Positions 17,526 to 22,282 of a stretch of 22,828 bases of DNA are shown piece by piece. Origin of the DNA: a virus; the IMG/VR virus record IMGVR_UViG_3300042565_001183, positions 1-22,828 of that record. One strand, 5' to 3'. Every line of letters starts with the position of its first letter. Position 1 is the first letter of the stretch. The notes under the pieces are model-generated. The model worked only from the letters and a program-made list of their open reading frames with translations. It was not told the origin of the DNA and made no database searches. The position numbers and the translations under genes are program-made.

Positions 17526-18120
17526 GGTACCAAAATTTTGCTACGAGAGGAAATCGGATGTTCCATCAGGGGGATGGTGGGTAAGTTGTCCGATTGTTGG
17601 CGAGCCCGTTCGCGGAGGTGATTGGCATGACATGGTTGCGAGTTGTGAGAAGCTTTTAATATCCAGAGGAATAACACCCCCAACAGATCTTGTGTCACAA
17701 ATAGAACACAATCTTTGTGACAGGCTTGCTGGAAGCACCAACTGCGTTCCTTGTTTAACGGCCAAACAAACCCTTGGATTTAGTGAAATTGTACGATGGG
17801 TAAAGGCTATGTATCACTTTGCCAAGGACAACAAATTTCAACTGGTTGATCAGGACGAGGCTGAACGAAGAGCAAAAATATGCGCTGCTTGTCCATACCA
17901 GATTTCAACTTCTGGCTGCTGGGGGTGCAAGGGGATTGCTGGAATGCTACCCCATATTGCGGGAGCAAAGACAACATCTTATGACCAGCAACTTAAAGCC
18001 TGCGGGATCTGTGGCTGCTACAATGCGGTCTCAGTCCATCTTCCACTTGATGTACAGACGGGTGAAGGATTGAACTTCCCCCCTCATTGCTGGAAGGCTA
18101 CGCCATCTCAAATCGGGTAA
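17518..18120 (+). CDS. Cys-rich, probably zinc-binding protein of unknown function
   Basis: This 200-residue protein has about a dozen Cys. C122-x2-C125 pairs with C134-x2-C137 (CAACPY, GCWGC); C162-x2-C165-x-C167 (CGICGC) precedes a conserved-looking HCW at 190-192. An extra CVPC is at 76-79. Knuckle pairs such as these usually bind zinc, and a 2Fe-2S or 4Fe-4S cluster is possible. There is no signal peptide or enzyme motif. It is translationally coupled to the small-terminase-like gene by an eight-base overlap, so a packaging or DNA-linked role is an inference. Its 3' end overlaps the helicase gene by 23 bases, tail to tail. Confidence 0.75.
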   Translation: MSEVPKFCYERKSDVPSGGWWVSCPIVGEPVRGGDWHDMVASCEKLLISRGITPPTDLVSQIEHNLCDRLAGSTNCVPCLTAKQTLGFSEIVRWVKAMYHFAKDNKFQLVDQDEAERRAKICAACPYQISTSGCWGCKGIAGMLPHIAGAKTTSYDQQLKACGICGCYNAVSVHLPLDVQTGEGLNFPPHCWKATPSQIG

Positions 18121-19402
18121 TTGCCTTATTAAAGCTCATGTTGGCCACGCCTGTCGGGCCGTCACGATGCTTGCCGACAATAAACTCCATGGTGGGATTC
18201 TGTTCGTGATCTTGGGCATCTTCGCTGTGAAGCATGATTACGATATCCGAGTCTTGTTCAATTGCTCCAGATCCCTTGAGGTCTGAAAGGCTTGGGCGTC
18301 CTCCGCGCTTGTCTGGGTCGCGGTTGAGTTGGGCCAGCACTAAAACAGGAACCTTGAGAGTTTTTGCCAGATCCTTGATGCCACCGCTAATCTCTTCCAC
18401 CTCACACACGCGATTGTCTTTTCCGCGCTTGCTATCACCCTTAACCAACTGGAGGTAGTCAATGATGATGAGGTCTAGCGGAGTGCGCTGGTGGGCGCGG
18501 CGGGCTACCGCCTTGAGATAGCCGATAGATTTGGCCGAGCTATCGTCGCAGATGATTTCGGACGCTTGGATTTCCTGAACCGCCCGTCCGAGAGATTGCT
18601 TCTGATGCGGGGTCACCCGACCAGAGAGGATGTCAGCAGCACCCACACGCGCCCGCGAGCGGATCATGCGCTCCATAAGAGCAACGCTTGTCATCTCCAA
18701 AGAGAAGATCAAGACCCGCTTCTTCTGGTTAAGTGCCACGTTTTCGGCAATCTGAAGGGCACTGGCCGTCTTGCCAACCGCTGGCCTTGCAGCCAAAACA
18801 ACCATGTCCCCGCCGCGCAGGCCAAACATAAGAAGGTCATCCAGCGGAGTGATGCCAGTGCGAATACCGATACAAGGTTTTCCCGCAATCGTGGATTCAA
18901 TGTTCTGGGCAGCGCGATCCAAGGCATTGTTGATGGAAAGCTTACTGCCATCATCCATCTCGTAGTCAGCCCGCATGACAGTGGTTTCCGACCAGTTCTT
19001 GAGTTCTTCGATCTTTAGCTCGCGGTCTCTAGCCTTGTGAACCATGTCGTTGGCCAAGTATTCCAGCGACCTTCTGTAGCGGGCTTCCTCCAGCTTGGGG
19101 TAGTAGCGTTTCCAATTGTTATGGGCTACACACGAAGTTGCTACTTCTGTGATCTTCTGCTCACCACCTACGATATCGTATTCGTTGGCAGCTTCAATCT
19201 CTCCTTTAACATTGATGATGTCTGCCTGCATCCCCTTGGCGATACAGCGCATGACCGCCCTAAAGATGATCTTGTTCTCCTGAAGGTAGAAGTGGTCTTC
19301 CTTTATGGATAAAAGGATCTCACGCTGATCCTCTGACGGAGCATGACAGAGGCAGGAAAGAATGGCGGTTTCGGCGGATGGTTCAAAGATGACTTCTTGC
19401 AT
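18098..19402 (-). CDS. Replicative DNA helicase, DnaB family
   Basis: This 434-residue protein has both DnaB domains. The N-terminal helical domain (1-110) resembles the DnaB primase-contact domain. The RecA-like domain has a Walker A (ARPAVGKT, 205-212), catalytic Glu in SLEM (236), a Walker B (LIIIDYLQL, D315), the LAQLNRD motif (357-362) and the arginine-finger region KHRDGPTG (411-418). All signature residues are intact, and the length matches bacterial DnaB. The hexamer unwinds DNA at the phage fork; no primase was found here. It begins eight bases after the glycosyltransferase-like gene and has no Shine-Dalgarno sequence. Confidence 0.93.
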   Translation of the reverse strand: MQEVIFEPSAETAILSCLCHAPSEDQREILLSIKEDHFYLQENKIIFRAVMRCIAKGMQADIINVKGEIEAANEYDIVGGEQKITEVATSCVAHNNWKRYYPKLEEARYRRSLEYLANDMVHKARDRELKIEELKNWSETTVMRADYEMDDGSKLSINNALDRAAQNIESTIAGKPCIGIRTGITPLDDLLMFGLRGGDMVVLAARPAVGKTASALQIAENVALNQKKRVLIFSLEMTSVALMERMIRSRARVGAADILSGRVTPHQKQSLGRAVQEIQASEIICDDSSAKSIGYLKAVARRAHQRTPLDLIIIDYLQLVKGDSKRGKDNRVCEVEEISGGIKDLAKTLKVPVLVLAQLNRDPDKRGGRPSLSDLKGSGAIEQDSDIVIMLHSEDAQDHEQNPTMEFIVGKHRDGPTGVANMSFNKAITRFEMA

Positions 19403-19410
19403 AGGAAGCG

Positions 19411-20472
19411 TTAGACAGCCTCTTGGGCCTTTCGTTCACGCTTTCTTTGCAAAATTTCCAGCATCGCCTGCCTGCGGCGTTCGCGCTCCACCTCAGAGAT
19501 AACTCGCTTCTTTTTCGCCTTTTGTGACGAATTATTTTTGGGCTTCAGAGTAGATTTTGATTTTGTCGCCACTTCTGGCGAATTAAGCACCACTTCTGAT
19601 GCTTTGTTACAAACTGTAGGACTTTGTGCATCATTGTTGACACTTTGGTCTAATCCCATCGAATTCGATGGGGTATTTAATCCCGTGGAATCTGACGGCA
19701 TTGAAAACCCTTCTTGCGCCATTTTGTGGAGAGATCCGTCTTTACACCCGTGGATGACCACAGCTTGGCTGGAAATAGTTCGGTCTGGACAAGTAACCCC
19801 CTGAACGGCTTGGGATTCTGGATCAGCAGCAAAGAATACAATCTTTCCATCTTTCCATTGGTAGTTAACGCTTTTCCAGTAGGTTCGGATAAGCGGCGTG
19901 TCGCGGCCAATCTCCATGAAATTCCATCGGCAACGTACATCCCAAGGCTCTGGAACATTTCCCGATTCCCTATAGGCCAAATTGTAGGTTGATAGAGATT
20001 GGGCTGAAGGACAAAAGTCCAAGAAATTGGGAGGATAAACCGCGCTGCCCACAATCATCTTGTAGATGTTTTTACCATTGGACGCCATTCCACCTTCGTA
20101 AAGGTGACCAAGAATTCCGACTTTTTTGTTGTATTCGGCGTCCAAATCATCTACCCACCCCTCCTTCATGGGGACACAGTCTGGCTCCCAAAAGTAGAAA
20201 GGAGCATTGGTTGGATACATGGCAGCAGCCACATCGGCAAACATCTGGTTCGGGCCAAGAGGCCAGCCATCAAATCCGTCTTGGACAAACAATTGGTCAA
20301 CTTCGGGAAAGCTTTTCTTTAGTTCTTGGATAAGAGAAGAGGATCCAAATGTATCCTTCGTGCAGCATAAAGTCGCTTTATGTCGCATGTTGATACCCAT
20401 GGCTGTGATAGCTTTGGCCGACTCCATGGCCAGATCGGCATCCCCGTTGTGGTAGGCAAAAGCAATATTCAC
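19411..20472 (-). CDS. Glycosyltransferase-like protein with basic C-terminal tail
   Basis: Residues 1-255 look like a GT-A-type glycosyltransferase: an opening strand MNIAFAYHNGD, a Rossmann-like half, then FYFWEPDCVPMKEGW (92-106) where EPD takes the place of the metal-binding DxD motif. Residues 256-303 are low-complexity Ser/Thr/Asn with a doubled GLN/GLD-type repeat. Residues 304-353 are strongly Lys/Arg-rich (KAKKKR, ERERRRQ). The start is GTG at 20472, overlapping the previous stop as GTGA; the next in-frame Met is at residue 16. The protein may glycosylate modified phage DNA or a host glycan. The basic tail and adjacent helicase favour a DNA target, but this is inference. Confidence 0.65.
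   Translation of the reverse strand: MNIAFAYHNGDADLAMESAKAITAMGINMRHKATLCCTKDTFGSSSLIQELKKSFPEVDQLFVQDGFDGWPLGPNQMFADVAAAMYPTNAPFYFWEPDCVPMKEGWVDDLDAEYNKKVGILGHLYEGGMASNGKNIYKMIVGSAVYPPNFLDFCPSAQSLSTYNLAYRESGNVPEPWDVRCRWNFMEIGRDTPLIRTYWKSVNYQWKDGKIVFFAADPESQAVQGVTCPDRTISSQAVVIHGCKDGSLHKMAQEGFSMPSDSTGLNTPSNSMGLDQSVNNDAQSPTVCNKASEVVLNSPEVATKSKSTLKPKNNSSQKAKKKRVISEVERERRRQAMLEILQRKRERKAQEAV
19655..19672. repeat. 18-base perfect palindrome inside the glycosyltransferase-like gene
   Basis: CCCATCGAATTCGATGGG is its own reverse complement and can also fold as a 7-base stem with an AATT loop. It lies in the low-complexity tail region, where a second, diverged copy of the same segment follows about 27 bases later. 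Confidence 0.6.
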
Positions 20473-21463: not shown

Positions 21464-21662
21464 TCGGATTCCACACTTTACCCTTGGGGGCCGTCCAGTT
21501 GCGGAGGGCATCAACGGCATTGACCCAACTAGTCTCCAAGTGTGCGTTCCATTCATGTTCTGGTGGGAAGTTCCAAGGATAGGGGCGGGGTGGATAGGAA
21601 ACACAACCACTTGTAATAAGTAGTGCGATTACTATCCCTGCTCTTTGAAGTCGTAGAACCAT
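21372..21662 (-). CDS. Putative lipoprotein, possible outer-membrane spanin
   Basis: This 96-residue protein has a short positive N-terminus (MVLRLQR), a hydrophobic core (GIVIALLI) and a lipobox ending SGC at Cys20 that fits the general prokaryotic lipoprotein pattern. The mature part begins Pro-rich (YPPRPYPWNFPP). Outer-membrane spanins (Rz1 type) are small lipoproteins with Pro-rich stretches, so that role is possible, but no endolysin or inner-membrane spanin was identified. It overlaps the upstream 216-residue gene by 31 bases and the convergent HNH gene by 92 bases. Confidence 0.6.
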   Translation of the reverse strand: MVLRLQRAGIVIALLITSGCVSYPPRPYPWNFPPEHEWNAHLETSWVNAVDALRNWTAPKGKVWNPIIRQYEPDFGYEIELMKLLERDLEEYEMYQ

Positions 21663-22282
21663 AGCTCCTCCTCGCTTTCACTAACCCATCTGCTGCCTGT
21701 ATGCTCGCAGCTAAACTCTTGGCTGAAAACCTTCCAGTCGGGCTTCATGGGGAATTGTTTGGCAATAAACGATCCCCCATCCATCCACAACACACGGTTG
21801 TTGGGTTGTAAAAAGTATTGACCACCTTCTCCCACCAGCACATGACCGCACTTATGCCCCGCCGCCATCTCGCCGTAGCCAGAGGTATAGTGGGGGCCGA
21901 AACACCAGTCCAAGGTGAACATATATTTTGCTTTTTCAAAGGTTTTGTTCTTTAGCATGACGTTTGCCGCACGATTCTTGCAGTAGTCCAAAATATTAAC
22001 CGAGCAATAGTAGCTCATGGAATCCCATAGCTGTATCCAATCCAATGGGTAAGACGATCCTCCCGTATCCTCTGCATGAAGGTAATGGATCGGGACTCTA
22101 GCATGCTGGCTTCCGTATTCAGTCATCACGCTAAACAACCCACACCGTTGGGGGATAGAAGTGAATGCGAAGACCTCGACTAGTTGTCGTTCTCTGCTGA
22201 CACATGGTTCCAAGTCATAAAAGAACCCCTCGTCTACAAAAGCAAAGAATGTGGGGATATTGATGTTAAGATAGTTGCTCAT
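21632..22282 (-). CDS. Hypothetical phage protein
   Basis: This 216-residue protein (MSNYLNINIPTFFAF) is rich in aromatics and Cys, with landmarks FTSIPQRCGLFSVMTEYG (about 41-58), PLDWIQLWDSMSY, FTLDWCFGPHYTSG and a C-terminal WVSESEEELWFYDF. It resembles a conserved family of unknown role that I associate with other phages, but I cannot name it. There is no signal peptide or known catalytic motif. The ATG overlaps the previous stop as ATGA (22279-22282), so it is likely translated with the secreted protein upstream. Confidence 0.65.
   Translation of the reverse strand: MSNYLNINIPTFFAFVDEGFFYDLEPCVSRERQLVEVFAFTSIPQRCGLFSVMTEYGSQHARVPIHYLHAEDTGGSSYPLDWIQLWDSMSYYCSVNILDYCKNRAANVMLKNKTFEKAKYMFTLDWCFGPHYTSGYGEMAAGHKCGHVLVGEGGQYFLQPNNRVLWMDGGSFIAKQFPMKPDWKVFSQEFSCEHTGSRWVSESEEELWFYDFKEQG

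Follow-up and report, generated by a model that had tools for sequence, protein, structure and literature searches.

The glucosyltransferases of phage T4 (alpha-GT and beta-GT) are GT-B enzymes, of families GT63 and GT72, and the TAGT enzymes have the GT-A fold, according to the accessible part of PMC13216743. The same part of that article provides, with TAGT, a precedent for GT-A enzymes that glycosylate phage DNA, and it describes the association of alpha-GT with the replisome clamp. Four core motifs of the GT-A fold are set out in the available part of PMC7185993. Among the open-licence papers listed on DNA-modifying or AT-hook phage glycosyltransferases, on TET metaviromes, and on DnaB and Verrucomicrobia, none describes the family reported here.

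We analyzed an IMG/VR record of an uncultivated bacterial virus, in which a terminase and further phage genes are present; the whole stretch of 22,828 bases is referred to as the window. An earlier note on this DNA had proposed an ORF that combines a sugar transferase with a basic, disordered tail beside the replicative helicase, and had raised DNA base glucosylation as a possible function. The features of this locus are as follows.

18098 to 19402, minus strand: DnaB-type replicative helicase; Pfam PF03796 (DnaB_C), E 5.5e-78; starts 8 nt past the glycosyltransferase stop
19411 to 20472, minus strand: predicted glycosyltransferase gene, 353 aa, GTG start, stop included; near relatives begin with the same MNI(A/V)F
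19414 to 19518, minus strand: basic C-terminal tail, residues 319-353, with a helix at 327-352; defined by charge, tail profile, predicted helix and selection
19519 to 19707, minus strand: linker, residues 256-318, variable and mostly disordered; pLDDT below 50 across much of 268-318; omega 0.44
19708 to 20472, minus strand: predicted GT-A catalytic domain, residues 1-255; AF2 pLDDT ~97, Foldseek and VIA matches to GT-A structures, omega 0.046
19741 to 19752, minus strand: H241-G-C-K244, candidate C-His and invariant lysine; H in 56/57 and K in 57/57 rows
19939 to 19941, minus strand: D178, candidate xED catalytic base; 52/57 rows; assigned by sequence position, not coordinates
20170 to 20187, minus strand: EPDCVP, residues 96-101, putative ExD metal/nucleotide-sugar motif; E96 and D98 in 57/57 aligned rows

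The structure used here was predicted by AF2 from 57 diverse rows, with a mean pLDDT of 87 and ~97 in the domain formed by the first ~260 residues, beyond which the chain is predicted to be disordered before it ends in a helix. A run with 19 near relatives gave a pLDDT of 44.7 and was left out of the fold search. Foldseek matched the model to GT6, GT8 and GT31 chains with E-values of 1e-5 to 1e-6. The 50 matches listed by VIA had Z 12.6-14.0; among them were glycogenin, LgtC, LARGE1 and B3GalT, with Z 13-14 over ~190-230 residues. Searches of solved structures by sequence, with a single or a profile query, returned nothing meaningful. AGT and BGT chains were absent among the structural matches listed, an absence that alone carries no weight as evidence. 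Counterparts of the core motifs described in the consulted portion of PMC7185993 were found at E96-x-D98 (57/57 rows), G142 (50/57), D178 (52/57) and H241 (56/57), with roles given by order along the sequence rather than from coordinates; in addition, K244 is invariant (57/57). Because EPDCVP had selected most of the 57 rows, the ExD was rechecked on 14 domains picked otherwise. Both ExD and HxxK were present in all 14, several of which are near-duplicates, with variation at the P and C positions. By the modelled fold, together with the DxD-type metal motif, the xED Asp, the G-loop Gly and the C-His, the protein is assigned to the GT-A fold class. Glycosyltransferase chemistry is predicted with high confidence, and the proposal of a sugar transferase is upheld by the predicted fold and the counterparts of four catalytic motifs. 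Since the xED-type Asp is conserved, the mechanism would be inverting.

A scan of IMG/VR viral contigs yielded 105 relatives, and the analyses use the best 80 of these 105, in which the ORF is 318-423 aa long. The ORF is a genuine gene on which purifying selection acts strongly: NG86 omega is lowest in the enzyme domain (0.046), higher in the tail (0.18) and highest in the linker (0.44), over 112 pairs from 49 distinct coding sequences. The lower value in the tail than in the linker argues for a functional tail, carried on a linker under loose constraint. Over these pairs the tail region has a reduced dS as well, perhaps owing to overlap with the dnaB ribosome-binding site. The last 45 residues contain 16 K/R versus 6 D/E. 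In each of the 53 among these 80 relatives that were inspected singly the C-terminus is K/R-rich (16-21 K/R per last 50 residues), and a tail profile, partly built from the same sequences, matches 80/80 of the best 80 of 105. Among 193 called ORF ends of two related genomes, the orthologue tails, each with a net charge of +11, take fourth and fifth place in basicity. The basic tail described in the earlier note is therefore K/R-rich, kept in relatives and constrained (omega 0.18). The disorder ascribed to it was found for residues ~265-320 and not for residues 327-352, which are predicted helical. A Pfam search of seven tails assigned no family (best E 0.043, under that family's cut-off), and the tail profile had no match among the non-glycosyltransferase ORFs of the collected loci. 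The tail more probably than not serves as a tether to a polyanion or a partner. A membrane anchor was considered and rejected: the hydrophobic moment of the tail helix (0.17-0.29) is no more than that of shuffled sequences and its mean hydrophobicity is ~-0.5 to -0.6, and a simple anchor is ruled against because the helix is not amphipathic.

The position beside the replicative helicase was confirmed and goes beyond chance, with dnaB 8 nt downstream in the window and the same adjacency in 80/80 of the best 80 of 105 relatives, where a dnaB-like ORF follows at 6 nt (13 relatives), 8 nt (65) or 31-33 nt (2). In a wider set of 159 ORFs that includes redundant loci, dnaB lies within 100 nt in 150 and 1295 nt away, with a single ORF between, in three; it is missing from the locus in six, in one of which (L168) a 118-residue non-DnaB ORF comes next and the locus stops soon afterwards. 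The pairing is old, since DnaB diverges to 55% identity among 17 loci compared; its counts are not independent, as all belong to one phage lineage. In three contigs, L180 (2118-3428, plus strand), L185 (6441-7751, minus strand) and L152 (799-2109, minus strand), an ORF of 437 aa that carries a GMGKT Walker-A-like motif separates the glycosyltransferase gene from dnaB. It is helicase-like by eye (GMGKT) and had no Pfam helicase match in L180, the one tested. Upstream of the glycosyltransferase gene, window positions 21632 to 22282 on the same minus strand encode a conserved gene with a match to phrog_3704 (E 7e-39, annotated ferredoxin) and no Pfam domain.

To define the extent of the family, an EPDCVPx4W DNA pattern was used, which gave at least 119 stretches. 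The loci from L123 on contain 111 motif-bearing ORFs; L175, without a family-profile match, was dropped. Iterated profiles brought in members not selected by EPDCVP, and clustering gave 49 representatives. Distant relatives are ~17-30% identical to the target. Against Pfam, PHROGs and NCBIfam the target matched no credible family (best PHROG E 0.05, residues 277-349 only), and no glycosyltransferase family of Pfam (nothing at E<=1) or NCBIfam was matched. The domain shared by ten distant members was likewise given no family name by Pfam or PHROGs. Among named phages, no credible relative of the target, of its paralogue or of one distant relative was found (best E 1). In genome_contigs, the near-family alignment returned no relatives and the distant alignment returned two bacterial loci. 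One of these is an Opitutia MAG contig with transposase-like and phage-protease-like ORFs beside the gene, by our reading; matches occur in 3/286 genomes of its class. From this rarity in bacteria no firm conclusion follows on which host the window's phage infects. The results add a large, divergent GT-A family, unrecognized by Pfam, PHROGs and NCBIfam profiles at the sensitivities used, that is seen here almost exclusively in uncultivated phages and is rare in bacterial genomes.

A distant paralogue of 262-268 aa, one of the members brought in by the iterated profiles, has a WETDMIP motif, lacks the basic tail and occurs in 4/12 related records (G004 30334-31122, equivalent to L101 11334-12122, plus strand; L109 10273-11079, plus; L111 343-1131, minus; L112 3519-4307, minus). 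In G004 it is located 3' of the primase gene and adjoins a 2600-aa ORF. The genes between the primase and the next giant ORF differ between G001 (24262-28871), with two methyltransferase genes and an ORF that by eye is possibly GT9-like, and G004 (27423-31122), with the paralogue and a weak GT8-like ORF; this interval may be a variable glycan-gene slot. Of three related genomes scanned for tRNA genes, two carry a single tRNA-Met (CAT): G004 (L100 13067-13142, minus strand) and G002 (L105 15712-15787, plus strand).

The distant members were examined for their genomic setting in a sample of 104 of 152 neighbour ORFs; those left out were mostly short ones and near-duplicate loci. Among the 25 of 33 families listed for these neighbours were seven FkbM methyltransferases, two GT2 and two DUF6492 proteins, and one each of WcbI, pyruvyltransferase and DNA methylase. 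The domain itself occurs in tandem copies in L130, L138, L149 and L178, and is fused to Methyltransf_24 in L203 and to DUF6492, under that family's cut-off, in L220. GT9-like second domains were recognized by eye in L148, L154, L195 and G001 (25969-27282), without confirmation by Pfam (E 0.041 for L148). For 4/64 distant ORFs, the locus contains a dnaB-like ORF in the same orientation at a distance of 4.9-12.5 kb. In the near clade, no recognized sugar gene lies immediately beside the glycosyltransferase gene; the genomes of the near relatives G001 and G004 contain Polysacc_synt_C, GT2, DUF3431 and methyltransferase genes. The basic tail as a trait of the whole family was rejected, a charge of +6 or more being found in 4/39 distant relatives versus 15% of background ORF ends; the mean charge of the distant C-termini is 1.87 versus -0.18 (p 0.0004) for a background that includes spurious ORFs.

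The fold, motifs, selection and operon described above are computed, and we infer metal use, stereochemistry, tail target and acceptor. The explanation that we favour, at slightly better than an even chance, is a phage-encoded GT-A glycosyltransferase of glycans or proteins with a polyanion-binding tail tether. Such an enzyme would be metal-dependent and probably inverting: E96-x-D98 and H241 would bind both metal and nucleotide-sugar phosphates, the donor would sit in the G142 loop, and D178 would activate the acceptor. Through the flexible linker and the conserved basic helix the enzyme would be held on a polyanion, for which nucleic acid at the working site of DnaB, its operon partner, is the simplest candidate. 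Together with the phages' other glycan genes, it would most likely act on a phage protein or glycan rather than on a DNA base; for a phage protein or glycan as the acceptor the chances are about equal either way. The evidence for a glycan setting comes mostly from the distant relatives (~17-30% identity), and for an enzyme that simply acts on glycans it is unusual that the strongly basic tail and the helicase neighbour are confined to the near clade.

Alternatively, the enzyme could alter glycans on the host surface at an early stage of infection, for instance to keep other phages out. The LPS and capsule enzymes LgtC and WbbM among the structural neighbours, the WcbI and pyruvyltransferase genes near distant relatives, and a replication-operon position that suggests early expression are consistent with this reading, which is nevertheless unlikely. 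Host-surface-modifying enzymes are usually encoded by prophages, whereas matches occur in only 3 of the 286 genomes of the class searched, and the non-amphipathic tail helix offers no simple membrane anchor. Less likely still is the transfer of sugar to another acceptor, such as a nucleotide, tRNA or a host regulatory protein, by a counter-defence or takeover factor; by its charge the tail could bind RNA, and the operon position would also suit, but the context of the wider family is glycan-like.

Glucosylation of DNA bases, in which the tail would keep the enzyme on new phage DNA while sugar is added to a hydroxylated base as a guard against host nucleases, is not supported by the analysis and is unlikely. 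The conserved basic tail and the dnaB operon in 80/80 of the best 80 of 105 relatives, a linkage kept despite the inserted Walker-A-like ORF, would fit such a role, as would AT-hook-like GRPRK/GRPKK sequences in 3/39 distant relatives and the TAGT and clamp-associated alpha-GT precedents in the accessible part of PMC13216743. However, the thymidylate-synthase-type hydroxymethylase PF00303 was found in 0/12 related records (control matched in 9/14), a search that left out the window record, itself a fragment. Two of the 12, G001 (72,849 bases) and G002 (70,251), are probably complete genomes, since their ends are identical over 123 and 127 bases. TAGT (PF20691) was found in 0/13 records (control matched in two genomes). 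The 0/12 records for the TET/JBP oxygenase PF12851 speak neither for nor against this reading, since the control of that search matched nowhere; PF12851 was also not among the 25 of 38 families listed for 71 ORFs. Moreover, distant relatives are not dnaB neighbours, mostly lack the basic tail (+6 or more in 4/39) and stand in glycan-gene settings. The structural comparison with the T4 glucosyltransferases suggested in the earlier note also speaks against its proposal, the predicted fold being GT-A and that of the T4 enzymes GT-B. We retain DNA as a candidate acceptor because an unrecognized enzyme could hydroxylate the base and because the gene lies in a helicase operon. More doubtful still is the idea that phage DNA glycosylation arose here independently for a third time, through a GT-A enzyme that its operon and a basic, DNA-binding tail couple to the replicative helicase and whose target base is hydroxylated by that unrecognized enzyme. 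As a test case the locus is clear, a glycosyltransferase having become fixed in the replication operon of a phage and carrying a conserved basic tail.

Compared with known systems, the T4 alpha-GT and beta-GT (PF11440 and PF09198) are likewise phage glycosyltransferases, and alpha-GT is replication-linked; they are GT-B enzymes, in contrast to the predicted GT-A fold of the phage protein, which has no PF11440 or PF09198 match. TAGT of T6-like phages shares with it the GT-A fold and a phage origin, as far as the available text of PMC13216743 describes it, but the PF20691 profile is not matched. By the tests made, the protein is a member of neither the T4 DNA-glucosyltransferase families nor TAGT. 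Among the CAZy families, no single one stands out. The likeness to GT8 is structural only, the PF01501 profile being unmatched in Pfam at E<=1. The GT8 motif is HxxGxxKPW, whereas the phage protein has HxxK. Retaining GT-A families vary at the position of the Asp that the phage family conserves. With the GT-A enzymes glycogenin and LgtC (GT8), B3GalT (GT31) and GT6, to which its sequence identity in the structural matches is 4-15%, the phage protein shares the predicted fold over residues 1-257 and the ExD, G-loop, xED-like Asp and C-His.
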